In this document: one piece after another, positions 1 to 38,746 of the stretch | Position numbering within the stretch: position 1 is the stretch's first letter | Layout: each line of letters opens with the position of its first letter | IMG/VR virus record: IMGVR_UViG_3300049491_000214 | Location: 1 to 38,746 of that record | Strand: one strand, 5' to 3' | From: a virus | Length of the DNA: 38,746 nt | Position numbers and translations under genes: made by a program | Notes under the pieces: model-generated | The model's input: the letters and a program-made list of their open reading frames with translations, nothing else | Database searches by the model: none | Told to the model about the DNA's origin: nothing

Positions 1-7
1 CAATCAG

Positions 8-9502: not shown

Positions 9503-9505
9503 CAC

Positions 9506-16747: not shown

Positions 16748-16911
16748 TAGTGAACCCTCCGAAGCCAATCCCAAATGAACCCGCAATTTGCTGCAGCGTA
16801 GGCGGCGAAGATGATGGCGTTAGGCCACTCCCGCCGCATGAGGTATTCGCCAGTCTGCCACAAGTAGAGCAGCGTGGCGAGTAGCAAAGGGGTATAGCCG
16901 GGAAGTTTCAA
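16747..16911 (-). CDS. 54-residue membrane protein, TTG start
   Basis: A short frame of 54 residues fills the gap between the helicase and the MPYIKQ gene. TTG at 16911 overlaps the helicase stop (TTGA) and its TAA overlaps the next ATG (TAATG). It encodes KLPGYTPLLLATLLYLWQTG, then EYLMRREWPNAIIFAAYAAA and NCGFIWDW, two hydrophobic segments joined by a charged turn. Similar small phage proteins with YAxANxGF are known to me by pattern only. The coupling on both sides supports translation despite the rare start codon. Confidence 0.65.
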   Translation of the reverse strand: MKLPGYTPLLLATLLYLWQTGEYLMRREWPNAIIFAAYAAANCGFIWDWLRRVH

Positions 16912-18287: not shown

Positions 18288-18486
18288 TTGCCGAGCCGCC
18301 GCCAAGAGTTATTTTGTGATGTGCCTTCTTGTGTGAGATATCGTTAGGCTCGTAGACGAACGGCTTACGGGCTAGCTTGCGAGCGCGGATACGCAGACGG
18401 CGGTGCCAGTCTTTGCCAAACGCCTTCCAGCGTGCGGCGACGCTTATATCCGTCACAGTCGCGCCGAGCGGGAGGTCAACAGACAT
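18277..18486 (-). CDS. Small basic hypothetical protein
   Basis: A 69-residue, Lys/Arg-rich protein (WHRRLRIRARKLARKP) with no recognised domain, possibly nucleic-acid binding by charge. ATG at 18486 lies immediately after the TAG of the methyltransferase-tail-like ORF, with AGGG nine bases upstream. Its end overlaps the helicase start by 11 bases. The role is unknown. Position between two DNA-acting genes suggests DNA metabolism. Confidence 0.6.
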   Translation of the reverse strand: MSVDLPLGATVTDISVAARWKAFGKDWHRRLRIRARKLARKPFVYEPNDISHKKAHHKITLGGGSANAR

Positions 18487-18780
18487 CTAAATAAGCCCTG
18501 ATAAACTCTTCCGCGAGCGGCGCGACAATCGCGTTGCCGTAGGCGCGCAGGCGTCCCATTCGGCTGGCAACCCCATGAGCCAGCGGGAATGTGCCGGGTT
18601 CAACTGGCCGGGCTTTTCCGTCGGTGCAGGCGAGCCATTCGGAATCACTCCAGAAACTTGATGCGCCAGCATTGTTGAGGTCGGCTTGATTCCTGCGCAT
18701 ATCTTGCGTGCCATAGCTTGCTCTACTGTTCCGCCGAATTGTGCTGCGGTCGGGGTGCCCCAGCTCGCGAGCCACACCAC
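18487..18780 (-). CDS. Small methyltransferase-tail-like protein ([17 protein letters not shown] motif)
   Basis: A 97-residue frame with WGTPTAA near the start and [20 protein letters not shown] (about 58-77) followed by CAPTAT. I recognise this sequence type at the ends of phage site-specific DNA methyltransferases and as short free-standing phage ORFs. No SAM-binding or PCQ/DPPY catalytic motif is present, so it cannot be an active enzyme alone. GTG at 18780 overlaps the VRR-NUC end by 58 bases and its TAG abuts the next ATG. A second frame over the same DNA (18476-18805) reads like a cytosine methyltransferase C-terminus, so this locus may be a methyltransferase remnant. Confidence 0.55.
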
Positions 18781-19052
18781 TCGTCCACGGCCAAGCGCGA
18801 GTCAAGAACGCTCACAGTAAAGCCTAACTTGCGCAGCTTCTCGTGCTCGTGCATTTGCTGAAGCGTCGCCTTCTTACCTGGAGCCTTCAGCTCGACGAAT
18901 TCCGTCAAGCCTTTAGGCCAGAGCACCAAACGATCGGGTACGCCCCTATGCGATGGGCTCACGAACTTATAAGCTCGGCCGCCCATCTCCGCGACTCGCT
19001 TCACGAAGTAAGCTTCAACGGCCGATTCGCGGATGATTCTAGCTAACCGCAC
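18723..19052 (-). CDS. VRR-NUC domain nuclease
   Basis: A 109-residue single-domain nuclease of the VRR-NUC (PD-(D/E)XK) superfamily. [17 protein letters not shown] precedes the catalytic core [10 protein letters not shown] (Asp), [12 protein letters not shown] (Glu-x-Lys) and [20 protein letters not shown]. Phage members cut branched DNA and act in Holliday junction or replication-fork processing. I chose GTG at 19052 because AGGAG lies six bases upstream and the family normally starts a few residues before RESA; ATG at 19082 is possible. It overlaps the primase-helicase stop. Confidence 0.9.
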
Positions 19053-20706
19053 TAAACTCTCCTGCCTTGTACACCTTGCCATCGCGCACTTCGAGAATGC
19101 CCTTAGCGACGAGACTCTTCACGCCCCGGTCATTCGCTTCGCAAGTGCCTTCCACCAAAGCGTCAAGACATTGCTGCTCGGCTGCGCTGAGCTTAGGGCC
19201 GGGGTCTTGGTAGATGGTGGATTCAAGGACAACTGACTGAACAGCTCGGCCAACTCGCGTTGAATCTGTTCGCGCGTGCGCAAGGATAAAGAACTGTTTG
19301 GCACAAGTCTCGCCGTCTTTTTGCTTCGTGTTCTCGAAGACGCGGATTTCCGTGCCGTCTTTGATGCCGGCGACGAACTCTGTGTCAACGGCCTGTTCCC
19401 ACGCACTAGTTCCTCGGCCACGGGTAGCGTCGCCATGTCCAGTATGGTGTACCACAAGGAGCGCAGCGCTACCTCGGCAAGCGGAAGCGGCGCGGAAGAA
19501 TCGGTAGAGGTCTTCGGCAGCATTTTCTTCTCCTCCGGAATATCGGCCGTACGTATCGATGATGAGTAAGGCCAGCTTACGCTCATAGAGTTTCTCCGCT
19601 TCGGCTATGTGGTTCTTCACGAGCTGTACGCCTTCCGGCGTCGGCAAGGCCAATGGGCGAGGCAGCACGACGAAAGGTGCTTCCGAGAAATCGAGACCGC
19701 GCGCATAGCGCAGCGCTTGAAGCCGGTGACGCAAACTGCCAGCGCCTTCGCCACACAGGTACATGACTAGCCCTTGCTGAGCCTCACGCCCGAAGAACGG
19801 CGCTCCCGTCGCCACGCTAACGCCTAGCTCAAGTGCCCATAGCGACTTGAACGACTGCGACGGGCCTATCAGCGACGCCTCGGCGCCGTGCTCCAACAGC
19901 CCGTCCACAAGGTACGGTGGCGAGTCGTGTGGCGCGAGTAAGTCTTTGGCGGTCCACAAAGAGACAACATTTTTGGCCTCTTCCGTGGCCGCTTCGATTG
20001 GCACGACTGGGAAGTCGTCCGGCGCGGCCTGCTCAAGCTGAAGCAAAGAGAGGCCAGTGATTCCCCCGCCCGGAGTGAACGATTGCCAATGGCTGCGAAC
20101 GTCGCCAATGCTCTTGAATTTTGCACCTTGAGCGGACCAGTCAAGCCATGTTTGAAATCCGGCCTCAGAGCCGCCGTACTCATGGTGGAGTGCCATGCCG
20201 ACGCGGCACCACTCGTCGTACCCTACGTCTGGGCTGATAGTCTCCAGCGCCTCAGCCAAGCGTTCTTTATCAACGGTCGGCTCGGCAGTGTACTCGCGCG
20301 GCGCTTCGACAGGTGGGATGAGCCAGTCAGGCGCAACCTCAAGCGCCGGAAAGTTGAAATCTGGCAATCGCCAGATGATATACCCGCCGTCGCCGCGGGT
20401 GTCCACGCCAGGCGCTAGGCGCCCCGCAGAGCTTCGCACGGGCTGAGTGTAGGCATAGAGCAGGTGCCAGCCGCCGCGCGGCGTAGGGATGCGTACAGGC
20501 TGTCCGATGCGGTGCTCGTTGGCTGCGAGCCAAGGCAACCCTTCCGGGTCCACGTCCACGACCCAGAAGCCGTTAACGGCGCCTGTCGGGGCGCCCCAGC
20601 TCGGCGGGTCACCATAAATGCTTCTCGCGAACTCGGCTTCAAGGGCGTCCTTGAAGCCGCGAGTTGTGAGTGGTCGCTTATCGGCAGAGCAAGGGAAGAT
20701 CAGCAT
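19039..20706 (-). CDS. Bifunctional Prim-Pol primase / RepA-like helicase
   Basis: A 555-residue replication protein. Residues 1-140 are an archaeo-eukaryotic Prim-Pol domain (IFPCSADKRPLTTRGF; catalytic VVDVDP with Asp51 and Asp53; PTPRGGWHLLYA 75-86). Residues about 145-215 resemble a primase C-terminal module (DEWCRVGMALHHE). Residues 250-480 are a RecA-like hexameric ATPase with Walker A GPSQSFKS (281-288), Walker B ALLIIDTYG (379-387) and a sensor-like LLVVHHTGH. It would unwind and prime at the fork, working with the polymerase encoded immediately upstream. ATG at 20706 abuts the polymerase stop. Confidence 0.9.
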   Translation of the reverse strand: MLIFPCSADKRPLTTRGFKDALEAEFARSIYGDPPSWGAPTGAVNGFWVVDVDPEGLPWLAANEHRIGQPVRIPTPRGGWHLLYAYTQPVRSSAGRLAPGVDTRGDGGYIIWRLPDFNFPALEVAPDWLIPPVEAPREYTAEPTVDKERLAEALETISPDVGYDEWCRVGMALHHEYGGSEAGFQTWLDWSAQGAKFKSIGDVRSHWQSFTPGGGITGLSLLQLEQAAPDDFPVVPIEAATEEAKNVVSLWTAKDLLAPHDSPPYLVDGLLEHGAEASLIGPSQSFKSLWALELGVSVATGAPFFGREAQQGLVMYLCGEGAGSLRHRLQALRYARGLDFSEAPFVVLPRPLALPTPEGVQLVKNHIAEAEKLYERKLALLIIDTYGRYSGGEENAAEDLYRFFRAASACRGSAALLVVHHTGHGDATRGRGTSAWEQAVDTEFVAGIKDGTEIRVFENTKQKDGETCAKQFFILAHARTDSTRVGRAVQSVVLESTIYQDPGPKLSAAEQQCLDALVEGTCEANDRGVKSLVAKGILEVRDGKVYKAGEFSAVS

Positions 20707-22758
20707 TCAGCCCTTCCTGTAACGCGCAGTCGTGTAGCCTGCCGCCGTCAACGGCAAGCCTGCTAGATACGTCGGCAGTTTCGTCATCTCCTCAATCATA
20801 GACTCGTGTGTCCTCACGTCGGTTTGCGACACTTCGGCAATCACTTCGTCATGTATGTGAAGCACGATCGGATACCCTTGCGCGTCAAGACGCAGCATTG
20901 CATCGACGAGTATATCACGACATCCGCCTTGCGTGATGGCGTTCGCCAGAAGTCCGCCATACAGCCCTTCACGATACCACTGCGGCGACTTGAGTGCCGT
21001 GAGCTGCGTGCGGAAGGTCTCTTTGCCTTTGGCGTCGCGCGTCACTACTGTCTCGATTTTCGGCTTGGCGAACATCACGCGCCGGCCGCTCGGAAGTTGA
21101 ATGGCGAGCCAGTCAGCGGTAGCTGCCATCTTGACCTTGCCGACGACAAACAGCTTGCCGGGATTACTAACGGCTTCTTTCGCCGCCGTGATGAGCGTCT
21201 CCCAAAGCTGCGTCGTCGCGGGGCATCCGTCGCGCCATGAGTGCTTGTATGCTGCGCACGCCGCGTAGATGTCGGGCGGCAAGTCGTGCGTGTTGTCAGT
21301 CTTGACAGCCCACTCGTACTCGCTGCGCCCGCGCTCGATGTACTCGGCCGACAGCGTGCGCGGCGCGTCCTGCGCCAGCTTCTTTAAGTCAAGGCGGTAG
21401 CTGTTCGCGATGTTGATATATGCGCCGACGCCGCCTTCATACCCCATGCTTAACTCGCAGCCTTTCATTTGCTGGCGTTCGGCATCGGTGAACGACTCAG
21501 GATCGCGACCTGTCATCTTCTGACCTAGTAGCCGATAGAAGTCTGCGCCGCGCCCGGCGTCTTTGTCGTGGTACGCCTGAAGTTTCCACTCTTCTCCTGC
21601 ATACCACGCAAGCATCCGGCCTTCGATATTAGACCAGTCGGCAACGAGCAGCTTGTGACCGGGCGCGGCAACGATGAGGCCGCGCAGCGCGTCGGCGCAT
21701 ACGGCCATTGCTTCGTCGCCCCAGATAACGTCTAGGCAGCCGATCTGGAGCGCCTCGATGGCACACGCCACGACATCGGCTTTGCGCTCAGGGCGGGGCA
21801 TGTTGCCCGGCTGGAAGCCTTTGTGACTGAATCGACCGATCCGACCGGCACCGCCGTATGTCACCGTATAACGGATTCGTCCGTCGTGCGCAGTATTGAT
21901 AGCTGTCTGACATTTCGCCGTGCTCGACTTCGCCGTGAGCAGGCGAAGCTCGATCATCTCGCGTTGCTCAGGTGTCAGCGTCGCCTCGCGCAGCGCCTTG
22001 CGCAACGTCTCGGCTCTCATGTCAACGAGCGCAAAGGTGTCGCTTGCAATCCAGTCCTTGACGGCGGCGCGCTGTGTGCCCTTCTTGATCGCTCCATCGG
22101 TGAGCGCCTGCACGCGCGCGTCAAGCGAGACGCGCGCCTTGGCGCTGGCGTCGATCATCTTCTGTGCAAGATCAAGGTCAACGGCGAAGCCGCGATCGTT
22201 GATGCGCTGGTCAAGGTGATACACGCGCTGCTCATATTCGCCAAAGTTCCAGTCGGGCAGGCGCTTGCAGAGCTGGCGCAGCGCTTCCACGTCATGGATC
22301 GCATAGTCAACAAACATGAGCCACTCGACAGGATAGGCGTCAGGGTCGGAGCCTTGCTCGCAGAATAGCTCGATCAGCGCCGTGCCGTCTTTCTTGGCCG
22401 CGTCGCCGAGCTTGTATATCCGGGAAAGGTCTTCGAGCGAGCCAGGGAGGCCGTGCGCGTAAGCGCGCGCCCTGGTGCAATACCAACGGTCGATAGGGAC
22501 GTCGATGAGCTTATGACGGATAACGACGCGATCGAACTGCGCGTTCTGAGCTGCAACGGTAATCTTCGGATCGCGCAGCGCGTCAAACAAATCGGCCGGG
22601 CGCCGCTCGCGAGTATCCCAGACTTGCACCGGATCGTCGTCAACGGCCCATGTCACGAGCAGCAATGCTGTGTCAGGGTGCCGCGCGTAGTTGTCAAGTC
22701 CGAGAGTGTTGAGTGCGTTCTTAAACGGCGCCTTGACTTCAGTGTCGAGATGTATCAC
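20707..22758 (-). CDS. Family A DNA polymerase with 3'-5' exonuclease
   Basis: A 683-residue replicative polymerase. The exonuclease domain has DTE (Asp5, Glu7), NAQFDR (72-77) and YAIHD (152-156). The polymerase domain has motif A ADWSNIEGR (373-381), a motif B helix with Lys432 and GYEGG, and motif C HIHDEV (634-639). There is no 5' nuclease domain. The motif B aromatic of E. coli Pol I is Leu here, as I recall in other phage polymerases of this branch. GTG at 22758 is chosen because it forms GTGA with the upstream stop; GTG at 22773 is possible. Confidence 0.94.
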   Translation of the reverse strand: MIHLDTEVKAPFKNALNTLGLDNYARHPDTALLLVTWAVDDDPVQVWDTRERRPADLFDALRDPKITVAAQNAQFDRVVIRHKLIDVPIDRWYCTRARAYAHGLPGSLEDLSRIYKLGDAAKKDGTALIELFCEQGSDPDAYPVEWLMFVDYAIHDVEALRQLCKRLPDWNFGEYEQRVYHLDQRINDRGFAVDLDLAQKMIDASAKARVSLDARVQALTDGAIKKGTQRAAVKDWIASDTFALVDMRAETLRKALREATLTPEQREMIELRLLTAKSSTAKCQTAINTAHDGRIRYTVTYGGAGRIGRFSHKGFQPGNMPRPERKADVVACAIEALQIGCLDVIWGDEAMAVCADALRGLIVAAPGHKLLVADWSNIEGRMLAWYAGEEWKLQAYHDKDAGRGADFYRLLGQKMTGRDPESFTDAERQQMKGCELSMGYEGGVGAYINIANSYRLDLKKLAQDAPRTLSAEYIERGRSEYEWAVKTDNTHDLPPDIYAACAAYKHSWRDGCPATTQLWETLITAAKEAVSNPGKLFVVGKVKMAATADWLAIQLPSGRRVMFAKPKIETVVTRDAKGKETFRTQLTALKSPQWYREGLYGGLLANAITQGGCRDILVDAMLRLDAQGYPIVLHIHDEVIAEVSQTDVRTHESMIEEMTKLPTYLAGLPLTAAGYTTARYRKG

Positions 22759-23081
22759 TCGACAGCGACCCACAACTCAGCCGGCGCAGTCGGGAAGTAG
22801 TGGAACAGAGCGGGGCAGAGCCACAGCACGAGCTTCGTTTGCACGTCACAATAGACTGTGCCGCCGTACTGCGCACCAACGCGCAGAAGCTGCCGGGCCT
22901 CGGGGAATTGGCTCGCCGAGAAGAGTAAACGGACAGACTCTTGCTCAGGTCGTGCAAGGCGCGACAGGAGCGTGTCCGCGCCCGATACGAATGCCTCACG
23001 TACTAAGCCAACGCGCGCGTCGTCAAAGGCCCAGCCGCCGTTCGCTGTGCGGTACGGTGCAAGCTCCATGATGCTGTTCAC
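22755..23081 (-). CDS. Conserved phage protein (DUF6717-like)
   Basis: A 108-residue protein with ELAPYRTANGGWAFDDARVG (6-25), REAFVSGADTLL, FSASQFP and LWLCPALFHYFP..P..L. I recognise it as a conserved phage family of unknown function (DUF6717, from memory). GTG at 23081 is preceded by GGAGG at 23087-23091 with five-base spacing, which decides against the later in-frame ATG. It lies between the ssDNA-binding protein and polymerase genes and is GTGA-coupled to the latter, which hints at a replication-associated role. Confidence 0.78.
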   Translation of the reverse strand: MNSIMELAPYRTANGGWAFDDARVGLVREAFVSGADTLLSRLARPEQESVRLLFSASQFPEARQLLRVGAQYGGTVYCDVQTKLVLWLCPALFHYFPTAPAELWVAVE

Positions 23082-23149
23082 TGTTGCCTCCAGGCTTGTG
23101 ATAAAAGTGCGGGTTACTTTTCAATCGCGACCCGCGGCGCGATAGGTCA

Positions 23150-23743
23150 TTAGGTGCCGAAGATGTCGCCGAACTCGCTGCCGGCCTTTGCCGAGTCAGC
23201 CACTTCGCCGAAGTCTTCCGCACTCGCCGATCCGCCGCCGCTGAACGGCTCGCCATCACGGACGAACTGAACGCCGGTCAACTGCGCGTTGATGCGCCGA
23301 CCGTGGCTGTTCTGCTGCGCCCAGATGGAAAGTCGCGCGTTGACGTAGCTACCGCTATACGGCTTGCCGCCTTCTTGGCTGAGCGGCTGCCGGTTCTGAT
23401 CGACTACCAACGGTCGGGTAGGGCTGCGGGCAGAGACAAAGAGATTGCCCGGATACCCTTCAATCTCAGGCTTGCTGTTCCCGTCGCGCAAACAAACGCG
23501 ACCGCCAGCAACGAGACCCTTCAGCACTTCGGCGCCTTGCGCGCCCCACTTGGCGTTCGCCACTTCGAGCATCGCCTTTTGCACAACGGCAATGCTCTTG
23601 TGACCAGGCTTGAGCAGGAACGAGGCCGAGAAAGCAGCCTTGCCCGTGCTGCCTTGCACGACGCTGGCGGTCCACAGACCGTGGGCGAAGGCAATTCGCA
23701 CGTCTTCAATCATCACAATACCGGTCGTCTTGATCTGAGTCAT
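23150..23743 (-). CDS. Single-stranded DNA-binding protein (DUF2815, T7 gp2.5-like)
   Basis: A 197-residue OB-fold-type protein of the DUF2815 family. It has an N-terminal beta barrel region (VRIAFAHGLW, ASFLLKPGHK), GRVCLRDGNSKPEIEGYPGN (about 85-104), YVNARLSIWAQQN and GRRINAQLTGVQFVRDGEPFSGG. It ends in an acidic, flexible tail with a terminal FGDIFGT, as in ssDNA-binding proteins where the acidic tail recruits partners. AAGG lies upstream of ATG at 23743. A possible promoter lies upstream, which suits its need for high expression. It works with the polymerase and primase-helicase downstream. Confidence 0.88.
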   Translation of the reverse strand: MTQIKTTGIVMIEDVRIAFAHGLWTASVVQGSTGKAAFSASFLLKPGHKSIAVVQKAMLEVANAKWGAQGAEVLKGLVAGGRVCLRDGNSKPEIEGYPGNLFVSARSPTRPLVVDQNRQPLSQEGGKPYSGSYVNARLSIWAQQNSHGRRINAQLTGVQFVRDGEPFSGGGSASAEDFGEVADSAKAGSEFGDIFGT

Positions 23744-23773
23744 GAGCTATGAGTTTCCTTGTGTTGAGCTATG

Positions 23774-23802
23774 AGAATTTGCTCGTCTCTCCGAGCCGTC
23801 AA
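23774..23802 (-). promoter_or_regulatory. Candidate sigma70-like promoter upstream of the SSB gene
   Basis: On the minus strand TTGACG (23802-23797) is followed after 17 bases by AATTCT (23779-23774). It lies in the 115-base gap between the DUF2800 and SSB genes. The -10 box is weak. The sequence CTCATAGCTCA occurs twice between it and the SSB start and may be a regulator site. Confidence 0.32.
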
Positions 23803-23858
23803 ATTTAGATGGGCAACCACATCGGAGGCGCGCAGGTTGCCGAGTCTCGCGTCCCGCT

Positions 23859-25001
23859 TTAACCCGCGGGCGGGCCGTCAATGTTTTTAAAGTCCTTCAG
23901 CGCTTTGTTCTCGCTAGTGCCGCGGACGATTTTCATGCTCGGCGCGGCGCGTTCTATTTGCTCAGCCAGCAGTGAGTACTTCTTAGCTGGCAGTATCTTC
24001 TCAGCTTCAGTCGGGGAAAGCAAGCGGAATTTATACATCTCGTCTTGCTTCATGCGCCACGCTTTGAAACAAGCCTCAACGGCGCTTTCATCTTTCCACT
24101 TCCTATTACCTTGGCGACCTTCAACGAGACACCAGCCAGGGATAGGGTGCCCCGCCCCCAGTGTAGCACGCGCCGCGGCCTCGATGCCGGCAACCCAGGT
24201 CTTGACAAGTTCCAATTTATCAAGCGCGCCGGCCAGACCGTGCTCTGTCATGTCAGGCACATTGGCGAAGTCAACAAGCGCAGCGTCCATCGCTTCTTGT
24301 CTCAGTGCCGGACACTTTGCCTTAGCCGGGCACCAACGGCACGCGTCATCGCTGGGCGCTAATGTCGCCGCGCCGGCTTCTATGGCATTGACGCAAGGCT
24401 CAACGGTGCCGCTATGCCATTCGCGAAGCTCAACGGCGCTCAATGGTTCGTGATCGGTATGATCGCAGCGCGGCTGCACGATGTGCAGCTCGACGCGTTC
24501 AGGGTCGGCGAGAATAGCAACGGCCTCTAGCGCATGGTAGCCGTACAGTCGCAGCTGTGGATTGTCAGCAGCCACGACGACATGCCCGCGCCCGTACTTA
24601 AGGTCGAAGACCTTGAGCACGGCAGGGGATACGACAATCGCGTCGGCCGTGCCGCGTGTCGGCGCGTCGCCGCCGACTTGCTGCTCAACGAGCAGCACGG
24701 CATCAGGCGTCAAAGCATCGCGAACGGTATCTAAGTAGACTTGAATGAAGCTCGCCATATCTGTGTCTACAGTGAATCGCGAGCGCACACTGCCGTCATC
24801 ATTCTTGACGAGCAGAATATAGCCTATATAGTTCGCAGCGTCGTTGCCGTCGCGCAATGCCATCGCCGCCAGCTCGTGCGCCGCTGTGCCTTCGTCGGCG
24901 TGCTCACTGCTGGTGTTTGGCTCGTTAGCGCTCAACGCGACGGAGCCAGGGCAGACTAGCCAACGATGGGCACTCGACGGGGAAAGTTTTGCATGGCTCA
25001 T
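23859..25001 (-). CDS. DUF2800 Cas4-like PD-(D/E)XK nuclease
   Basis: A 380-residue protein of the DUF2800 family. LSPSSAHRWLVCPGS (6-20) supplies the first cysteine and CRWCPAKAKC (about 241-250) the other three of a Cas4/AddB-type Fe-S cluster. RGTADAIVV...LKVFDLKYGRG (about 115-138) contains the Asp and Asp-x-Lys of the nuclease core, and QLRLYGYHAL matches the motif IV helix. Phage members are thought to process DNA ends during recombination beside a ssDNA-binding protein, as here. The ATG is ATGA-coupled to the 60-residue gene upstream. Confidence 0.9.
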   Translation of the reverse strand: MSHAKLSPSSAHRWLVCPGSVALSANEPNTSSEHADEGTAAHELAAMALRDGNDAANYIGYILLVKNDDGSVRSRFTVDTDMASFIQVYLDTVRDALTPDAVLLVEQQVGGDAPTRGTADAIVVSPAVLKVFDLKYGRGHVVVAADNPQLRLYGYHALEAVAILADPERVELHIVQPRCDHTDHEPLSAVELREWHSGTVEPCVNAIEAGAATLAPSDDACRWCPAKAKCPALRQEAMDAALVDFANVPDMTEHGLAGALDKLELVKTWVAGIEAAARATLGAGHPIPGWCLVEGRQGNRKWKDESAVEACFKAWRMKQDEMYKFRLLSPTEAEKILPAKKYSLLAEQIERAAPSMKIVRGTSENKALKDFKNIDGPPAG

Positions 25002-25662: not shown

Positions 25663-26232
25663 TCATCTATTCCGCAGCCAAATGGTTACAAAGGCCGGCG
25701 CCACAGCGCGCTGATAGTCGGCCCGTGCCGTCGCCCGAGCGCGATCATAGTCGGCCTGTGCCGGCGCCACAGCGCGCCGATAGTCGGCCCCTGCCGGCGC
25801 CGTAGCGCGCTGATAGTCGGCCCATGCCGTCGCCGTAGCGCGATCATAGTCGGCCCATGCCGGCGCCTCAGCGCGCTCATAGTCGGCCTCTGCCGATTCC
25901 ATAGCGCGATCATAGTCGGCCAATGACGGCGCCAGAGCGCGCTGATAGTCGGCCTCTGCCGGCGCCACAGCGCGCTGATAGTCGGTCCATGCCGTCGCCA
26001 CAGCGCGCTGATAGTTGGCCTGTGCCGGCGCCACAGCGCGCTGATAGTCGGCCCGTGCCGTCGCCGATAGAAGATGCTCAGCGGCCCAACTCCAATCAAA
26101 AGTGCTGACGTGCTCGGCCGCTAGCTCAAGCGTAGGGACAACGCCGCGCGGCCACAGGGCACGGAACGCTTGGACTTGTTCATCACACGCGCCGTGGGCG
26201 CGGAGTAATCGAGCGGTTATTCGGTTAGTCAT
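25663..26232 (-). CDS. Hendecapeptide-repeat protein A (11 units of ADYxRAxAPA type)
   Basis: A 189-residue protein. Residues 1-56 are a conserved-looking domain (ITARLLRAHGACDEQVQAFR, FDWSWAAEHLL). Residues about 60-180 are eleven units of exactly 11 residues, D/N-Y at 62, 73, 84, 95, 106, 117, 128, 139, 150, 161 and 172, with consensus ADYQRAVAPA. The C-terminus is FVTIWLRNR. An 11-residue period means three helical turns, as in hendecad coiled coils or membrane-binding amphipathic helices, though the frequent Pro would kink it. A paralogue lies at 27486-27992 with an identical 5' end. I cannot assign a function. Confidence 0.8.
   Translation of the reverse strand: MTNRITARLLRAHGACDEQVQAFRALWPRGVVPTLELAAEHVSTFDWSWAAEHLLSATARADYQRAVAPAQANYQRAVATAWTDYQRAVAPAEADYQRALAPSLADYDRAMESAEADYERAEAPAWADYDRATATAWADYQRATAPAGADYRRAVAPAQADYDRARATARADYQRAVAPAFVTIWLRNR
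25680..26073. repeat. 33-bp tandem repeats (array A)
   Basis: About eleven 33-bp units coding for the 11-residue repeats, with recurring GCGCGCTGATAGTCGGCC and GCCGTCGCC/GCCGGCGCC blocks. Units differ mainly at a few positions. The array is expected to expand and contract by slippage or recombination with array B (27509-27835). Confidence 0.85.
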
Positions 26233-26238
26233 GGCTTG

Positions 26239-26691
26239 TTACCTTACCCAGTAAGTTATACCGTCAAACTCGACGGCAGTATAATCCATTTGCAGCTCGC
26301 GCGCCGCTTGCTCCCAATCGATGCAAGTGTTTGGCCAGCTTGCTTCGCTGTTCACGGCGCCGATATCATCGGCGAATTGCTGCGCGTACTCGACGAAATA
26401 GCTGCTACGGATCAGCGTGGCTCCATATGCCCAATCTTCTGAGTAGCCTTGCGCCTCGGCTGCCAGCTTCTTAAGGGTTATCAGCTCTTCTCCATTCTCA
26501 TAACACCAATCAGCTAACGCTTGTTGCGCAGACTCGCACGCGTCGCGCGCTTCCTCGTCCCGGTCAATTTGCTCTTCGTTGCAGGCTTCATTTGCTGCAT
26601 CCATTAACTCCGCGTGCTCGGTTTCAAGCTCTTCTATGCGTGCTATCACGTCGCGAGAATCAATCATGTCGTCATACTTGGTGATGTTCAT
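26239..26691 (-). CDS. Acidic conserved phage protein of unknown function
   Basis: A 150-residue acidic protein. The N-terminal half is helical and Glu-rich (RIEELETEHAELMDAANEAC). The C-terminal half has EDWAYGATLIRSSYFVEYAQ, DDIGAVNSEASWPNTCIDWE and DYTAVEFDGITYWVR. I recognise this C-terminal module from phage and plasmid proteins of unknown role. Its acidity and YF..YA / FDG.TYW pattern are somewhat like ArdA antirestriction proteins, but that is only a resemblance. The start is preceded by AAGGAG within the shared junction also used by the next gene upstream. Confidence 0.72.
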   Translation of the reverse strand: MNITKYDDMIDSRDVIARIEELETEHAELMDAANEACNEEQIDRDEEARDACESAQQALADWCYENGEELITLKKLAAEAQGYSEDWAYGATLIRSSYFVEYAQQFADDIGAVNSEASWPNTCIDWEQAARELQMDYTAVEFDGITYWVR

Positions 26692-27108: not shown

Positions 27109-27489
27109 TTACTCCTTCAGTCCTGCCATTGTGTTTTCAATCCACGCGCGGATACCGGGCTGGTGCTCGGCAAGTAATGCCGAGTCCTTACCGCGCGCAA
27201 GCCGACGCTCGGCTCGGCTCCAGCTAAGCCAATAGTTAGCTTTACTCGGCGCTCCTGGCAGTATCACCAGTTTCAAATTTCGCCAGTTGTCTGACAACTG
27301 CTTGTCAAGCCCGTACTCCCACAGCTCCCAGGTAATCTCGGCGTCTGGCTTATGTGACGCAATAAGGAAACTCTTCGCGGCTTCTGGCTGATTGCCTGTA
27401 TAACGCAATTCTTGACGTTGCATAGCCCATGCCTTTTTGTTCAGTTGACTTTTTTCCGTTTTCGTCTCTTCGCGCTCTGTTTTGTTCAC
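27109..27489 (-). CDS. Hypothetical early protein
   Basis: A 126-residue protein. I use GTG at 27489, which overlaps the stop of repeat protein B (GTGA) and has GGAG about seven bases upstream. The longer frame upstream only reads through the repeat array in another phase. The N-terminus is charged (KTEREETKTEKSQLNKKAWA). The remainder contains LVILPGAPSKANYWLSWSRA and ERRLARGKDSALLAEHQPG. No domain recognised. It ends LKE-stop, and that GAG TAA doubles as the ribosome site of the next gene. Confidence 0.62.
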   Translation of the reverse strand: MNKTEREETKTEKSQLNKKAWAMQRQELRYTGNQPEAAKSFLIASHKPDAEITWELWEYGLDKQLSDNWRNLKLVILPGAPSKANYWLSWSRAERRLARGKDSALLAEHQPGIRAWIENTMAGLKE

Positions 27490-27992
27490 AGGTTCTCTCC
27501 CAGCCAAATGGTTACAAAGGCCGTCGCCCGAGCGCGCCGATAGTCGGCCCCTGCCGGCGCCACAGCGCGCTGATAGTCGGCCCATGCCGTCGCCCGAGCG
27601 CGATCATAGTCGGCCCCTGCCGGCGCCGTAGCGCGCCCCAAGCTATCGGCCCGTGCCGTCGCCGTAGCGCGATCATAGTCGGCCAATGACGGCGCCAGAG
27701 CGCGCTGATAGTCGGCCCATGCCGTCGCCAGAGCGCGCTGATAGTCGGTCCATGCCGGCGCCACAGCGCGCCGATAGTCGGCCTCTGCCGGCGCCACAGC
27801 GCGCTGATAGTCGGCCTGTGCCGTCGCCGATAGAAGATGCTCAGCGGCCCAACTCCAATCAAAAGTGCTGACGTGCTCGGCCGCTAGCTCAAGCGTAGGG
27901 ACAACGCCGCGCGGCCACAGGGCACGGAACGCTTGGACTTGTTCATCACACGCGCCGTGGGCGCGGAGTAATCGAGCGGTGATCTTACGCAT
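27486..27992 (-). CDS. Hendecapeptide-repeat protein B (paralogue of A)
   Basis: A 168-residue paralogue of protein A. The N-terminal domain (residues 4-58) is identical in sequence to A's, and the DNA at 27831-27981 matches 26070-26220 exactly by eye. Nine 11-residue units follow (DY at 61, 72, 83, 94, 105, then 128, 139, 150). One altered unit near 116 (ADSLGRATAP) is a residue longer, through a three-base insertion. The C-terminus FVTIWLGENL again matches A before diverging. It lies three genes upstream of A in the same operon. The near-identity indicates recent duplication or gene conversion. Confidence 0.8.
   Translation of the reverse strand: MRKITARLLRAHGACDEQVQAFRALWPRGVVPTLELAAEHVSTFDWSWAAEHLLSATAQADYQRAVAPAEADYRRAVAPAWTDYQRALATAWADYQRALAPSLADYDRATATARADSLGRATAPAGADYDRARATAWADYQRAVAPAGADYRRARATAFVTIWLGENL
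27509..27835. repeat. 33-bp tandem repeats (array B)
   Basis: About nine 33-bp units, same family as array A. One unit near 27630-27650 contains CCCCAAGCTATCGGCC in place of the usual block and is three bases longer, keeping frame. The flanks (AAATGGTTACAAAGGCCG on the 3' side of the gene) are shared with array A. Confidence 0.83.
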
Positions 27993-28231: not shown

Positions 28232-28417
28232 GGAGTGTCTTCTACCGTGGTCTAGGGTAGTTAAGTACTCTAGGGGGGTAAAGCGGCTAGCGAGGGGCGG
28301 CGCCTTTCGGCCAAACCCCTATAGGGAGTGTCTTCACACGCGCGTACCCGCCATAGGCGGTACTGCGCCTGGAAGGGTTGGCCGGATGCGCCGCTTCGAG
28401 CCGGAGAAATTCGGTTA

Positions 28418-28519
28418 ATGAGAATTGTTCTCATATCTGTTTTTCTTTTCGCTGATTGGGCGGGAGGGTTATGCGTGGTGCTTGGCATTATGCTTGTGGC
28501 TGCGTGTATTGCTATATAG
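28418..28519 (+). CDS. Possible 33-residue membrane peptide
   Basis: ATG at 28418 opens MRIVLISVFLFADWAGGLCV then VLGIMLVAACIAI, a strongly hydrophobic 33-residue peptide with one or two spans. GGAG lies 11 bases upstream, which is rather far. It is the only plus-strand frame in an otherwise minus-strand region, so it may be a toxin-like peptide or simply chance. Confidence 0.3.
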   Translation: MRIVLISVFLFADWAGGLCVVLGIMLVAACIAI

Positions 28520-28563
28520 GCGTGGATCGCAGAGTACCCGCTACCCTTGCTAGGGGTATTAGC

Positions 28564-28983
28564 TCAAAGTCTTAGCAGCGGGCAATAGGAGCGGAGCTTA
28601 CGGCGCGGTTTGGCCGCACCGTTATCGTAGATCACGCCATCAATCACAGCGAAATAGTGGTTAGTGCATTCGACAAGGAACCAGCCGCTATGTGGCAATA
28701 GGTCTAGGACGCGGCCAACTGTAGGGAACTTGAGCAGTCCGCGCCGATCAAAGCCTAGGTTATTGAATAGCTTCGGCCGCTCGTCGAGCAATACTCCGCT
28801 TCGGCTATCTATCACGGCATGCATCATTTGTTTGAAGAATACTCCGCGCCGCTCTTTGCGACCTTGCAAAGCTAGCAGCCTATGCGCTTCAGAGTACTCG
28901 ACGCATAAGAGCGCCGACAGTGCCAGCACTCCGCAGTCGTTTGTTTCGTGTGCGTAGCCTTTAGGTGTTTCGAGCTTGATCAC
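28564..28983 (-). CDS. Papain/C39-like cysteine peptidase domain protein
   Basis: A 139-residue protein with ETNDCGVLALSALLCVEYSE (13-32), the active-site Cys17 context of papain-like and C39-like folds. About 90 residues later NHYFAVIDGVIYDNG has His109 and Asp115/Asp119, which fit the His and Asp/Asn of the triad and the usual H(Y/W)..V.DG pattern. It probably cleaves peptide or isopeptide bonds, though it could be a degenerate binding domain. GTG at 28983 is preceded by GAGAGGA. As one of the first leftward genes it may act on host proteins early in infection; that is inference. Confidence 0.65.
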   Translation of the reverse strand: MIKLETPKGYAHETNDCGVLALSALLCVEYSEAHRLLALQGRKERRGVFFKQMMHAVIDSRSGVLLDERPKLFNNLGFDRRGLLKFPTVGRVLDLLPHSGWFLVECTNHYFAVIDGVIYDNGAAKPRRKLRSYCPLLRL

Positions 28984-28985
28984 GG

Positions 28986-29129
28986 CTACTTCCTCTCGAC
29001 AGTTACGGACAGTGCGCCACAGGTAATGGCGTGGCGCTCCAAGGCCAGTGCGCCGCGCTCGCTGCCAGCTCGGTATTGCGCTGATATCAGCTCGCCGCGC
29101 ATTAGGTAGACAATGGTTAATAGGTACAT
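28986..29129 (-). CDS. 47-residue first ORF of the leftward operon
   Basis: ATG at 29129 opens a 47-codon frame (MYLLTIVYLMRGELISAQYR then AGSERGALALERHAITCGAL) with a strong ribosome site GAGGAG five bases upstream. Its TAG is two bases before the GTG of the peptidase gene. The short N-terminal hydrophobic stretch may be a membrane helix. Too short for family recognition. Confidence 0.55.
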   Translation of the reverse strand: MYLLTIVYLMRGELISAQYRAGSERGALALERHAITCGALSVTVERK

Positions 29130-29222
29130 GTCAGCTCCTCTTCGTTACGGTCAGGTGAGTTGTGCAGAATGCCAGCCAAGAAAGCCCCTGGTGAATCTAT
29201 CGAGTAGCCAGTATCTACTAGA

Positions 29223-29239
29223 AGAGACCACTTGTCTCT
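29223..29239. repeat. Short inverted repeat upstream of the leftward operon
   Basis: AGAGAC and GTCTCT flank CACTT, about 95 bases before the first leftward ATG and next to TCTATAGA. It may be an operator or part of the leader RNA. The 29130-29291 gap holds no convincing gene. Confidence 0.35.
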
Positions 29240-29291
29240 ATAGATTTCTCAAGTTAACTGTTATTCTCACTACCTGTTTGCGTATCGGCAT

Positions 29292-29330
29292 ATTGCTCGC
29301 AATCAATGCTTAATGTTGATTGCGAGCAAT
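29292..29330. repeat. Perfect 15-bp inverted repeat beside the iterons
   Basis: ATTGCTCGCAATCAA (29292-29306) and its exact reverse complement (29316-29330) flank the nine bases TGCTTAATG. The right arm runs directly into the first iteron. Such a hairpin next to iterons suggests part of a replication origin or a dimeric regulator site. Confidence 0.8.
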
Positions 29331-29438
29331 GCCTATCGGTTCGAGGCATCGATGCCTATCGGTTCGAGGCATCGATGCCTATCGGTTCGAGGCATCGATG
29401 CCTATCGGTTCGAGGCATCGATGCCTATCGGTTCGAGG
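29331..29438. repeat. Iteron array, 23-bp unit, 4.7 copies
   Basis: Four exact 23-bp copies begin at 29331, 29354, 29377 and 29400, and a 16-base partial copy ends at 29438. The array alternates a perfect palindrome GGCATCGATGCC with TATCGGTTCGA. It lies between the leftward and rightward operons, followed by A+T-rich direct repeats. This is the classical build of an initiator-bound origin, although a partition or operator array would look alike. Confidence 0.85.
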
Positions 29439-29610
29439 TGTATCTCCATATGGCAGCAATTTCCCCTCTGCCCTGCTCCCGACCGCGCGATGCAAATGGC
29501 GGCCTATGCGTAGTCTACAACGCATGAGGCTGCAAGCCAGCAGCGGCGCGGGCCGCAGAGGGGAGGCACACCCCCACCGGGCTAAGCTAATGGCGCGGCT
29601 GCCGATGGCC

Positions 29611-29668
29611 CTTACGAGAAAAATTTTGAGAGCTTTTGCCTTACGAGAAAAATTTTGAGAGCTTTTGC
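29611..29668. repeat. Two exact 29-bp A+T-rich direct repeats
   Basis: Copies at 29611-29639 and 29640-29668 are contiguous and identical, each with an AAAAATTTT core. A related ACGAGAAAA follows near 29686. Together with the A+T-rich run to about 29770 they make the lowest-melting stretch seen in the window, a candidate duplex-unwinding element. Confidence 0.8.
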
Positions 29669-29754
29669 AAAAACACAGAGCCTCCACGAGAAAAGCTGCA
29701 AGAAATTACAAATTTGCGATTTTCAACAAACTAACCGCTTGTAGAAAAAAGCAG

Positions 29755-29774
29755 ATGTCAAAAATCTTTGACAT
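29755..29774. promoter_or_regulatory. Inverted-repeat operator upstream of the rightward promoter
   Basis: ATGTCAAA and TTTGACAT flank AATC, a perfect 8-bp inverted repeat ending 14 bases before the -35 box of the rightward promoter. The spacing suits a dimeric activator or repressor. No obvious regulator gene was found in the window apart from HTH-containing enzymes, so a host protein may bind here. Confidence 0.5.
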
Positions 29775-29788
29775 GATGTACGAAAGGC

Positions 29789-29818
29789 TTGACACGGCAA
29801 AACCGCTTGTGTTATGGT
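29789..29818 (+). promoter_or_regulatory. Candidate rightward promoter
   Basis: TTGACA (29789-29794) and TATGGT (29813-29818) are 18 bases apart, giving a start about 20 bases before ATG at 29846. It is the only convincing sigma70 promoter before the long rightward operon. A second TTGACA at 29768 belongs to the inverted repeat. Confidence 0.58.
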
Positions 29819-29845
29819 GCGCCGACTCTCCACACAGGAACGAGA

Positions 29846-30028
29846 ATGATTCGCAACTTGATTCTAAAATGGCTCGGCTTGCAAGCGGCTCACGCCGCGC
29901 TGGCAATGCAGGCGCACAACTTGACAGTGGTCGCTGAGGCGCATAACGAATTAGAGCGGCGCCTGCTTATTCTCGAAACCTTCTTGGCTAGCCAACACGA
30001 TCGCCTGCCCGGCGAAAAGGTACACTGA
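29846..30028 (+). CDS. First gene of the rightward operon, small helical protein
   Basis: A 60-residue protein from ATG at 29846, with AGGAA five bases upstream. The longer frame from 29789 would start inside the promoter. The N-terminus MIRNLILKWLGLQAAHAALA is an amphipathic or hydrophobic helix, followed by a helical charged part (EAHNELERRLLILETFLASQ). It may be peripheral to membrane. Function unknown. Confidence 0.62.
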   Translation: MIRNLILKWLGLQAAHAALAMQAHNLTVVAEAHNELERRLLILETFLASQHDRLPGEKVH

Positions 30029-30031
30029 CAA

Positions 30032-30223
30032 ATGATCTGTCCGCGATGCGAAGCCCGTGCCGTTTACCCAGAGCACGGCGCGCTGTGCCTGAGCTGTCTT
30101 CAGCGTGAGCTGAAGAGTTTTGGTGAACGGAACGACGACAACCCCGGCGCGCAGTCGAGCGAGTTGAAGCGCGGCGGATGGCGCACGCATCCGCACGGCA
30201 ACTCGGACGGAGATAAGTCTTGA
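30032..30223 (+). CDS. Small zinc-ribbon protein
   Basis: A 63-residue protein with CPRCEARAVYPEHGALCLSC (3-22), a classic four-cysteine zinc ribbon (Cys3, 6, 19, 22). The tail is polar. It follows the previous gene by three bases. Such ribbons often bind nucleic acid or proteins. The role here is unknown. Confidence 0.65.
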   Translation: MICPRCEARAVYPEHGALCLSCLQRELKSFGERNDDNPGAQSSELKRGGWRTHPHGNSDGDKS

Positions 30224-30311
30224 CAGATTCAAAATTGCATGGGAGTCTGGAGGCAGGAAGAACCTAAATAACTTTCGCCTCGTGAGACCGGCCTTCGAGC
30301 CGACAGTCGTT

Positions 30312-30330
30312 CCGCGGAGAGACACCGCGG
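30312..30330 (+). other. Stem-loop in the leader of the decoration-type gene
   Basis: CCGCGG (30312-30317) and CCGCGG (30325-30330) pair around AGAGACA in the 132-base gap after the zinc-ribbon gene. There is no T-run. It may be a weak terminator or an mRNA-stabilising hairpin. The rest of the gap shows nothing convincing. Confidence 0.35.
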
Positions 30331-30355
30331 CGGGGCGTCCAACTGAAGGACCGGC

Positions 30356-30679
30356 ATGTCACCAGATCGCGACTTGAAGTTCGTAGCGAACGGCGGGCGG
30401 TTGATTGCCGTTGCAGCGGCAGCGGCAGCCGATACCGGCTTTCGCACCGGCCGGTTATACCTCATCTCGTTGATGGGCGCCGCAGGCGTTGGCGCGATGG
30501 CAGCTTGCCGCTGGGGCGCGAATGACCCGACTGTCGCCGACGCCGGCTTCGATTTCACTGTTTCGATCGGCGAGCCAATTTTAATTCGCGTACCGGCAGG
30601 CGTCACAGAGCTGCGTGCAATTCGCGTCGTTGCGGTTGATGCAACGCTTATGGCCTCGCTGGTTGACGAAGGCGCCTGA
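30356..30679 (+). CDS. Small virion (decoration-type) protein, hypothetical
   Basis: A 107-residue Ala/Val/Gly-rich, mainly beta protein (LISLMGAAGVGAMAACRWGA; FDFTVSIGEPILIRVPAGVT). AAGGA precedes ATG at 30356. It resembles, with its neighbour at 30741, small outer-capsid or tail-decoration proteins rather than enzymes. The operon context (upstream of terminase) supports a structural role. No specific family recognised. Confidence 0.55.
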   Translation: MSPDRDLKFVANGGRLIAVAAAAAADTGFRTGRLYLISLMGAAGVGAMAACRWGANDPTVADAGFDFTVSIGEPILIRVPAGVTELRAIRVVAVDATLMASLVDEGA

Positions 30680-36104: not shown

Positions 36105-36380
36105 ATGAACTTCCGCATCCCTGACCGCTTCCAGATGGCGAACCGTAACTGGGTAGTTAAGTGGAAGGAATCGAAGAATTACTATGGCAAGACCGAAGGC
36201 GACAAAGCCCGCATCACGCTGGCTCATAAGATGTCTTCTGAGCTGGTACTTCAGACTTTCTTGCACGAGCTGCTGCACGCAGCGGCCGGCACAATGGGAT
36301 GGGATAAGGTCAACTCCGATGAGCATCGAATCGACGCTCTCGCCGCGCTGCTAGCGCAAGCTATCCAGACGGCTGAGTGA
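36105..36380 (+). CDS. Small HExxH putative metalloprotease-like protein
   Basis: A 91-residue protein. FLHELLHAAAG contains HExxH (His54, Glu55, His58), the zinc-binding core of gluzincin-type peptidases. DEHRIDALAALLA 13 residues on could supply the third ligand (Glu73 or Asp77). It is much shorter than SprT-type proteases. It may be a minimal protease acting in capsid maturation, or a zinc-binding remnant. Its end overlaps the TerL start (GTGA). Confidence 0.62.
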   Translation: MNFRIPDRFQMANRNWVVKWKESKNYYGKTEGDKARITLAHKMSSELVLQTFLHELLHAAAGTMGWDKVNSDEHRIDALAALLAQAIQTAE

Positions 36381-37720
36381 CAACGCTCAAGTTCTCTCTG
36401 CATCCTGCGCAGCAAGCAATCTACAACTCGCCTGCACGATTCAAGGTATGCGCCTGCGGCCGACAGTTCGGCAAGACGTATCTTGCCGTCGTTATGTGTA
36501 TCGTGAACGGGCTTGCGACGCACAACACGTACGGCGACGAGCTTTCGACTGACGCCGAAGTCGTGTACATCGGCACGACGCTGGAGCAAGCCCGACGAAA
36601 CGTCTGGAACTTGCTGAAGTCACTCGCCATGCCTGCCGTGATGATTGACGCGGCTGGCCGAGCGATGGTTCACGAGAACACGAGTGTTGTCACGCTCGCG
36701 AACGGCGTTCGTATCCGGCTTCTCGGCATGGACAATCCTGATGCAGGCCGCGGTATGCGTATTCGCTTCGCGGTGTTCGACGAGTACGCGCAGATGCCCG
36801 AGAACGCATTTCCGGAAATCATCCGGCCTGCGCTTCTCTCGACTCGCGGCGGCACGCTGTTCATCGGCACGCCGAAAGGGCGTAACCACTTCTACCGTCT
36901 CTTCCAGGCGGCAAAGCAAGGTGAGTTGAATGCCGACTGGGCGGCGTTTAACTACTCATCGTTTGAGAACTCGTTCTTGTCAAAGGACGAGCTTGTGCAG
37001 ACGGCTCAGGACTTGACTCGCGGCAGCGAGCACCTGAAGCAGCAAGAAATCAACGCGAGTTTCGTAGAGCCGGGCGGCGACATCTTCTCGCGTACAATGT
37101 TTCCGATCGTCGAGAAAGAGCCTCAGGATGGAGAATACTTCATCGCCGTTGACTTGGCCGGATTCTCGACAGAGGCTATGGACAAGACGCCGAAGCGGCG
37201 CGATAACACAGCCATTTCAGTCGTGAAGGTCCACCCTGTCTATGGCGGGAAAGGCAACGACGCGACCGGCTGGTGGGTCCGCAAAATAATTTACGGTCGG
37301 TGGGATGTGCGTACGACGGCGTACAACATCTTGAAGGCCGCGCAGGATGTCCGCTGCACGGAGGTCGGCATCGAGAAAGGCGCGCTGAAGAACGCGGTCG
37401 AAGGGTACCTCGAAGAGTACAAGACCGAGTACGGCGCCTCTTTCCGAATTGTCGAGCTGAGCCACAACAACCGCGCGAAGCAGCAGCGCATAGCCTGGGC
37501 GCTCGAAGGGCGTGCATCGAAAGGTCGCATCGCCCTTGCGCCCGGTGCGTGGAATGAAGCGTTTCTCGATGAGGCTTGCGGGTTCCCGTCACCGCTCGTA
37601 CACGACGACATGATCGATTCGCTGGCCTACATAGATCAGATGACCGAGCTGTCAGCTTATTCACTTGACGACTTTTCCGACATCCGTGCTGAGTTCACGG
37701 ATGATATAGCAGGTTATTGA
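36377..37720 (+). CDS. Terminase large subunit (packaging ATPase-nuclease)
   Basis: A 447-residue two-domain terminase. The ATPase has Walker A CGRQFGKT (27-34), Walker B AVFDEYA (132-138) and coupling motif GTPKG (164-168). The RNase H-like nuclease has IAVDLAG (Asp259), VGIEKG (Glu333) and HDDMIDSLAY (409-418) as its acidic residues. It translocates DNA through the portal and cuts it. GTG start at 36377 overlaps the previous stop. Its TGA overlaps the portal ATG by one base, so the two are coupled. Confidence 0.96.
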   Translation: MTTLKFSLHPAQQAIYNSPARFKVCACGRQFGKTYLAVVMCIVNGLATHNTYGDELSTDAEVVYIGTTLEQARRNVWNLLKSLAMPAVMIDAAGRAMVHENTSVVTLANGVRIRLLGMDNPDAGRGMRIRFAVFDEYAQMPENAFPEIIRPALLSTRGGTLFIGTPKGRNHFYRLFQAAKQGELNADWAAFNYSSFENSFLSKDELVQTAQDLTRGSEHLKQQEINASFVEPGGDIFSRTMFPIVEKEPQDGEYFIAVDLAGFSTEAMDKTPKRRDNTAISVVKVHPVYGGKGNDATGWWVRKIIYGRWDVRTTAYNILKAAQDVRCTEVGIEKGALKNAVEGYLEEYKTEYGASFRIVELSHNNRAKQQRIAWALEGRASKGRIALAPGAWNEAFLDEACGFPSPLVHDDMIDSLAYIDQMTELSAYSLDDFSDIRAEFTDDIAGY

Positions 37721-38746
37721 TGTCACTCGTCGTTGAAGCAAATGCCAAGCCCATGCGGCCGACCGGACGAGGGTCGGACCTCGTGTCATGGGTCATGGCG
37801 AATGTGCAGCGCAACCGACAAGACCGCGACAACGCCTACAAAGAGCGTTGGGACGAGTATTACAACATCTGGCGCGGGCGTTGGTCACCTACGTCACGCA
37901 CTCGCAAGAGTGAGCGCTCACGCCTCGTCTCGCCCGCTACGCAGACTGCGGTAGACACGATGCTGTCGGAGATTATCAGCGCGATCTTGAACAAAGATCA
38001 GTGGTTCGATATCTCGGATGACATCGCTGACGATCAGAAGCAAGACGCCATCCTCGCGCGCGATCGTCTGACGGAAGACCTGTACAAGGATGGCATCGTA
38101 GACTTCCTTGCGCAAGTGCTCTTGAACGGCTCGATGTACGGCCAGTTGAGCGCCAAGATCGTCGTAGACGTGAAGCAAGAAGCGATGCCGATCCGCGTTG
38201 GCGACAAGCTCGTCCGCGGCTACAAAGAGCGCGCGGCGATCTACCCCGTTGCGATGGAGCCGGGCCAGTTCGTGTGGGATATGAGCGGCGCGACGAAAGT
38301 CGATGACATGCTCGGCGTGGCGCACGAGTTTCGCCTCGGCCTGCACAAGATTCGCGAGCGCCAGAAAAGCGGCGTATATCTTCCCGGTGATATAGGCCCG
38401 TCGCCGGATGAGAAGTCCACCGCAGAACGCTCGGAAGGCGACAACCCTGCGCACCAGAACGACGCGGCATTCGTCACGGAGTGGCATGGTCTAGTCCCGA
38501 AGCAGATGCTCGCGCGAATTCGCGGCGGCGACGCCCCCGGACTGGATGCGATACTCTCTGACATTGGCAATGACGAAATGGTCGAGGCCATCGTCACAAT
38601 CGCGAACGAAGGCCAGCTTCTCCGCGGCATACCTAATCCAAGTGTCATGGATGACCGAGCAGTCGTCTCGAATCAGTTCGACGACGTGCCGAACCGCTTC
38701 CAAGGCCGCGGACTGATTGAGAAGGCGTTCAACTCGCAGAAAGGGC
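37720..38746 (+). CDS. Portal protein, N-terminal part (continues at 8-1080)
   Basis: Runs from ATG at 37720 (TGATG overlap with the terminase stop) to the contig end without a stop. It continues in phase at 8-1080 in the circular genome. The N-terminal part carries DNAYKERWDEYYNIWRGRWS and SRLVSPATQTAVDTMLSEII, typical of large podovirus portals, followed by DFLAQVLLNGSMYGQL and a mixed alpha/beta wing region. The acidic linker about residue 230-255 (SPDEKSTAERSEGDNPAHQN) is probably disordered. Confidence 0.9.
   Translation, partial: MSLVVEANAKPMRPTGRGSDLVSWVMANVQRNRQDRDNAYKERWDEYYNIWRGRWSPTSRTRKSERSRLVSPATQTAVDTMLSEIISAILNKDQWFDISDDIADDQKQDAILARDRLTEDLYKDGIVDFLAQVLLNGSMYGQLSAKIVVDVKQEAMPIRVGDKLVRGYKERAAIYPVAMEPGQFVWDMSGATKVDDMLGVAHEFRLGLHKIRERQKSGVYLPGDIGPSPDEKSTAERSEGDNPAHQNDAAFVTEWHGLVPKQMLARIRGGDAPGLDAILSDIGNDEMVEAIVTIANEGQLLRGIPNPSVMDDRAVVSNQFDDVPNRFQGRGLIEKAFNSQKG
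38621..38746. repeat. Direct terminal overlap (copy 2)
   Basis: Identical to 8-133; see the first copy. It should be trimmed when the circular unit is written. Confidence 0.93.

Follow-up and report, generated by a model that had tools for sequence, protein, structure and literature searches.

The cluster of repeats between 29.28 and 29.78 kb of this viral genome is probably the origin of replication of the phage, as a preliminary description made from the DNA letters had proposed. The stretch analysed, hereafter the window, is the whole 38,746 bp of IMG/VR record IMGVR_UViG_3300049491_000214, and the cluster lies in a 716-bp divergent gap, the longest non-coding gap of the genome in the ORF set used here, which we propose as origin and early control region. 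An origin is the best-supported reading of the cluster, well supported though unproven, and the new support for it is comparative, coming from repeat arrays in related phages. The features are as follows, by position in the window and with the strand where one applies.

16908 to 25001, minus strand: rest of the replication module, from profile matches and gene order
19039 to 20706, minus strand: gene for a protein with Prim-Pol, PriCT_2 and RepA-like AAA_25 helicase parts (Pfam, AlphaFold2, match to RSF1010 RepA), hereafter PrimPol
28986 to 29129, minus strand: 47-aa ORF with an AGGAG site, gene 1 of the leftward operon
29130 to 29845: divergent non-coding gap of 716 bp, from gap calculation; the bounding ORFs have ribosome-binding sites
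29188 to 29337: second least stable 150 bp of the genome, on the left flank (nearest-neighbour stability scan); probable leftward promoter region
29292 to 29330: hairpin, a 15-bp perfect inverted repeat ATTGCTCGCAATCAA/TTGATTGCGAGCAAT with arms at 29292-29306 and 29316-29330 and a 9-nt spacer
29329 to 29438: tandem array of 4.8 units of 23 bp, 100% identical (TRF score 220)
29461 to 29565: GC-rich imperfect stem-loop of about 105 nt, from folding z; a weak signal, rank 36 of 3864 segments
29610 to 29668: two identical 29-bp A+T-rich direct repeats (copies 29610-29638 and 29639-29667)
29620 to 29769: least stable 150 bp of the whole genome (nearest-neighbour stability scan)
29755 to 29774: operator-like dyad ATGTCAAA-N4-TTTGACAT, just upstream of the rightward promoter
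29789 to 29818, plus strand: strong sigma-70-like promoter TTGACA-18-TATGGT with an extended -10, for the rightward operon (promoter scan)
29846 to 30028, plus strand: 60-aa ORF, gene 1 of the rightward operon

The two ends of the contig have 126 identical bases in common (8-133 and 38621-38746), and the genome is therefore circular or terminally redundant. Window positions 1-7 lie outside this overlap, and positions 1-14 are the reverse complement of CCGCGGACTGATTG, located inside it, a match that looks like a fold-back artefact of the assembly. The placement of the cluster between a leftward replication operon and a rightward operon, noted in the preliminary description, was confirmed, and the cluster is the sole strong non-coding repeat cluster of the genome. 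Cumulative GC skew, which had been suggested as a check on the origin, reached its lowest point at 27956, some 1.3 kb to the left of the array, and its maximum at 13217; because both extremes adjoin switches of gene direction, skew cannot separate replication from transcription and gives no help to either side. No close relatives of the window phage were found in IMG/VR, and the long-range relatives retrieved by a terminase search, with the terminase alone in common, were of no help.

The perfect inverted repeat and the palindrome-bearing iterons were found where they had been described, the latter as 4.8 identical copies where 4.7 had been counted, and the hairpin runs straight into the array. 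The array can be read as TATCGGTTCGAGGCATCGATGCC at 29334, 29357, 29380 and 29403, plus 13 bp at 29426, each unit harboring the perfect palindrome AGGCATCGATGCCT (29344, 29367, 29390 and 29413), and a lone TATCGG, identical to the start of the 23-bp unit, stands at 29283 ahead of the hairpin. Across 100 dinucleotide-shuffled versions of the window, TRF scores rose no higher than 64, against 220 for the array, and neither the unit nor its palindrome occurs anywhere else in the window above chance. No other 110-nt segment of the genome folds as strongly as 29271-29380 once GC content is corrected for (-7.1 sd). With 4.8 copies of 23 bp, the array is in agreement with the tandem repeats of about 17-24 bp that iteron-type theta origins generally carry in non-coding DNA, and we propose the palindromic units as putative initiator binding sites. 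A coding reading of the ORF at 29320-29658 was rejected, as the 23-bp period is no multiple of 3, and so was GGTTCGA as a tRNA-like attachment site, there being no tRNA, no Rfam match and no integrase recognised among the larger ORFs searched.

The two A+T-rich repeats and the further inverted repeat of the preliminary description are likewise present (29610-29667 and 29755-29774), and we propose the two 29-bp copies as a putative unwinding element. The genome's two least stable 150-bp stretches flank the array on both sides, the one at 29620-29769 corresponding to the low-stability A+T-rich element that is a general mark of theta origins beside their iterons. With RNA parameters the stem-loop at 29461-29565 gave a z of -2.9 on the plus strand and +0.3 on the minus strand, and with DNA parameters 29440-29620 gave a z of -1.6; this folding is suggestive only, and the element is possibly a primase-loading or origin stem-loop. 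The dyad at 29755-29774 is expected 0.02 times per window at up to 3 mismatches, and no promoter of the leftward operon reached the threshold of the promoter scan. Among the observations that speak against an origin are the 23-bp spacing, a non-integral number of helical turns, and the presence of a strong promoter and an operator-like dyad in the same gap.

Besides PrimPol, the leftward operon encodes an SNF2-type helicase, a VRR-type endonuclease, PolA, a gp2.5-like SSB and a lambda-type exonuclease, and much of this module, including its order, is common to BPP-1, BcepC6B and about 80 IMG/VR contigs. In a Foldseek search the helicase part of the PrimPol model matched RSF1010 RepA (1g8y_A, E 4.8e-11, TMt 0.68), which provides the RepA-fold hexameric helicase characteristic of replication from RSF1010 oriV. 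No RepC-type initiator was recognised with Pfam or PHROGs in the ORFs searched, a set that holds part of the small ORFs, and we propose the PrimPol-RepA protein as the candidate initiator, primase and helicase. The C-terminal 120 residues of the relatives' PrimPols are predicted to form a winged helix (pLDDT about 90) with Z of 9-10 to DNA-binding and ORC/Cdc6 winged helices. For PrimQH primases, a winged helix has been suggested as the part that recognises the origin (PMC5862659); this fold is widespread, and sharing it does not demonstrate a function. In the AlphaFold2 model of the window PrimPol the C-terminal winged-helix-like part is shorter, with one helix fewer. As this part looks truncated in the model, PrimPol may not be the binder of the repeats; the shortened domain may still bind them, or they may instead be recognised by a small early protein. 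The array lies 8.6 kb from the PrimPol gene, and the 350 bp 3' of the PrimPol stop codon, where the next gene overlaps, have a repeat z of 0.

Several other genes of the window were noted. Two paralogous minus-strand genes (25663-26232 and 27486-27992) contain 33-bp in-frame tandem repeats in 11.3 and 9.3 copies, with an 11-aa, WADYQRAVAPA-like unit. Among relatives, in-frame tandem-repeat arrays of other kinds were present within the 2.6 kb preceding the exonuclease gene at 11 of 60 loci, BPP-1 bbp36 being one; the 3' sides of pol and of the helicase gene gave 1 of 75 and 3 of 30. The acidic protein encoded at 26239-26691 (minus strand) has a weak, sub-threshold match to the antirestriction protein ArdA (E 3e-4). 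In the structural region (3627-4904 and 5814-12490, plus strand), large ORFs of 831, 397, 441, 552 and 425 aa had no PHROGs or clear Pfam match.

The comparison covered 15 loci of relatives that share the replication module and have a PrimPol of the window's type, with a RepA-type helicase; merging the near-duplicate pairs L158/L159 and L004/L140 leaves 13 distinct loci. Clusters of 7-mers in direct and inverted orientation were scored over the 350 bp that follow the stop codon, with shuffled versions of each stretch as reference. Immediately 3' of PrimPol, z exceeded 5 at 11 of the 15 loci (10 of the 13 distinct ones; median z 10.4); by comparison, this value was passed behind pol in 2% of cases, behind ssb in 2%, behind exo in 1% and behind the helicase in 0%. 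The stretch 3' of PrimPol ranks within the top 0.3-4% of the windows of its own locus in all ten distinct positive loci; L004 is borderline, with a z of 4.2 and a rank at 15%. These arrays consist of 7-10 bp units, present in both orientations and usually placed around a central hairpin that is often of CCCTTTAGGG type; examples of units are CTACAAA in CRP-811 and CRP-823, GTATAAA in CRP-822 and CRP-831, GCGGAGAT in RHph_N65 and GGGAGTT in L151. Isolated phages are among the carriers (Roseobacter phages CRP-811, -822, -823 and -831 and Rhizobium phage RHph_N65; z 25-54), and iteron-hairpin arrays also lie 3' of PrimPol in contigs G003, G009-G012, G015 and G016. Three PrimPol phages at a greater distance (GB2A, ctyzp037 and Upyo) had no arrays, and among the BPP-1-type primases, which have another helicase, three of nine stretches exceeded z 5, two of these with simple A+T runs. 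A 45-bp inverted repeat (87%) was seen 3' of a BPP-1-type primase gene at L005:1245-1370. We found no paper on such arrays in the open-access literature. The remark that this plan is not typical of podophages of this size proved an unhelpful comparison, iteron-plus-hairpin arrays being common among the phages that share the module.

The window junction has the same ingredients, clustered repeats and a hairpin in non-coding DNA, with a z of 45 (29280-29630). Two loci with z about 0, L093 and L128, are the two in which PrimPol is on the operon strand, as it is in the window. L093 belongs to contig G001, which is 48 kb long with ends overlapping by 127 bp. Of the relatives found that have PrimPol in the same operon, G001 is the closest, and its divergent non-coding junction of about 730 bp (16740-17466) holds GGTAGC nine times (z 7.7), a GGTAGC-bearing hairpin in the CTACCGTAC-TTTA-GAGTACGGTAG region and, at 17103, the 150-bp stretch of lowest stability in that genome. 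This array is modest, with a score of 42 where the top-scoring 350-bp window reaches 66. Homologous phages without any repeats at this junction, named in the preliminary description as an argument against an origin, are thus not what G001 represents. In G006, the contig of L128, the strongest repeat cluster (z 22.6) lies in a 766-bp gap at 29791-30556, which is upstream of the exonuclease and is not divergent. Because the PrimPol-in-operon exceptions (two of three) hold repeats elsewhere, in long gaps, the window array looks like the origin of PrimPol, displaced in this phage. The G001 junction also carries, near the operon start, a 20-bp inverted repeat GAACTGACAAAAATTGTCAC/GTGACAATCTTTGTCAGTTC (95%; L170:16740-17466) that resembles the TGTCAAA dyad of the window and is not identical to it.

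The link between arrays and PrimPol in the relatives is one of architecture and association, not homology, because their iterons are 7-10 bp long and none has the 23-bp palindromic unit; by this association PrimPol is a candidate binder of the iterons. The search for the 23-bp unit in other phages, also suggested earlier, returned no exact match in the other IMG/VR or GTDB contigs searched, and the palindrome-spacing pattern had no match in IMG/VR. A TATCGG in common with the G001 gap at 21541-21568, which is not a divergent junction, was put down to chance.

The putative origin works like the origins of RSF1010, lambda or pRN1 and is a member of none of these families. With RSF1010 oriV, served by RepA, RepB' and RepC, it shares iterons, an A+T-rich element and stem-loops for the primase (PMC4234260), as well as a RepA-fold helicase, matched by the PrimPol of the window; unlike in RSF1010, primase and helicase are one Prim-Pol-type protein, the units are 23-bp palindromes and no RepC-like initiator was recognised in the window ORFs searched. 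Lambda ori likewise has about four palindromic iterons beside an A+T-rich stretch that melts, and these iterons are inverted repeats that bind O dimers (PMC5043065), but ori lies inside gene O, whereas the window array is non-coding, and neither lambda O nor P was found in the window phage. The pRN1 origin is a stem-loop 3' of a PrimPol-helicase-winged-helix gene that works when moved (PMC4234260); unlike the window it lacks iterons, and its helicase is of the SF3 type. For Bordetella phage BIP-1, which has the same exo-SSB-pol-helicase module, the proposed origin is a stem-loop located 3' of the primase gene, a position unlike that in the window, and the authors of the pRN1 paper dismissed the BIP-1 repeats as origins (PMC4234260); the arrays found here are a different feature, in other phages. 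SaPI Rep and SCCmec Cch2 are helicase initiators whose C-terminal domain binds iterons at an origin adjoining the gene (PMC7581432), and PLE RepA is a mobile-element initiator that binds iterons (PMC7145576); these belong to other initiator families, and the window array is far from the PrimPol gene. The closest architecture is that of the relatives' arrays, clustered non-coding repeats with a hairpin tied to a PrimPol-RepA gene, which differ in lying directly 3' of PrimPol and in their short units in both orientations.

The main rival to an origin is a transcriptional control region in which the units serve as operators, bound by a phage repressor or activator of the divergent early promoters, with replication starting elsewhere; we consider this unlikely. 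Perfect 14-bp palindromes are typical operator sites, and the divergent junction, with its plus-strand promoter at 29789 and the dyad at 29755-29774, also favours this reading; yet some 350 bp separate the array from the rightward promoter and 150 bp separate it from the first leftward gene, and the 23-bp unit is at no other promoter in the genome. A near-five-fold tandem array beside the least stable DNA of the genome fits an origin better, as do the PrimPol-linked arrays of the relatives, and origin and operator functions may coexist.

It is improbable that the array acts on DNA in some other way, at the start of packaging or in recombination, partition or integration, or that it is a recent slippage expansion of little function. 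The complete identity of the units, as after recent amplification, and the long non-coding gap would suit such an account, but the hairpin, the array and the weak DNA are all in one place, the large terminase gene (36377-37720) is 7 kb away and no integrase was recognised with PHROGs and Pfam among the larger ORFs searched. A structured RNA made from the region, with the hairpins acting as RNA, is very improbable: the whole region folds well on the plus strand (z -7.5) and the 29461-29565 stem-loop folds beyond chance on that strand only, but good folding is built into tandem palindromes, no match to an Rfam family was obtained, and no plus-strand promoter was found upstream of the array (28400-29280).

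Returning to the origin, we tentatively suggest, as a conceivable account somewhat short of a likely one, a fast-evolving cassette of iterons around a hairpin that normally lies directly 3' of the initiator gene in phages with a PrimPol-RepA-winged-helix protein; here it would have moved to the divergent operon junction, its units now 23-bp palindromes, coupling origin opening to early transcription. Beyond the existence of the repeats and their link with PrimPol in relatives, the steps of the mechanism are what we infer. An initiator, most likely the PrimPol-RepA helicase or else a partner protein, would bind the 23-bp units, probably as dimers, and the nucleoprotein complex would melt the adjacent A+T-rich stretch of two 29-bp repeats. 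A RepA-like hexamer would be loaded, the Prim-Pol domain would prime, possibly at the hairpins, and extension would follow by PolA with SSB, while transcription from the divergent early promoters probably assists opening.

To our knowledge, origins have been identified for few of the tailed phages that encode a Prim-Pol primase-helicase of their own. The combination of iterons, hairpin and A+T-rich element is of a known kind; what is new is the displaced palindromic version and the PrimPol-linked rule. According to this rule, the origin is the repeat array with a hairpin 3' of PrimPol or, when PrimPol is inside an operon, the repeat array in a long non-coding gap. The rule makes the origins of dozens of phages and prophages, isolated ones included, directly testable, and pairs each predicted origin with a candidate winged-helix reader.
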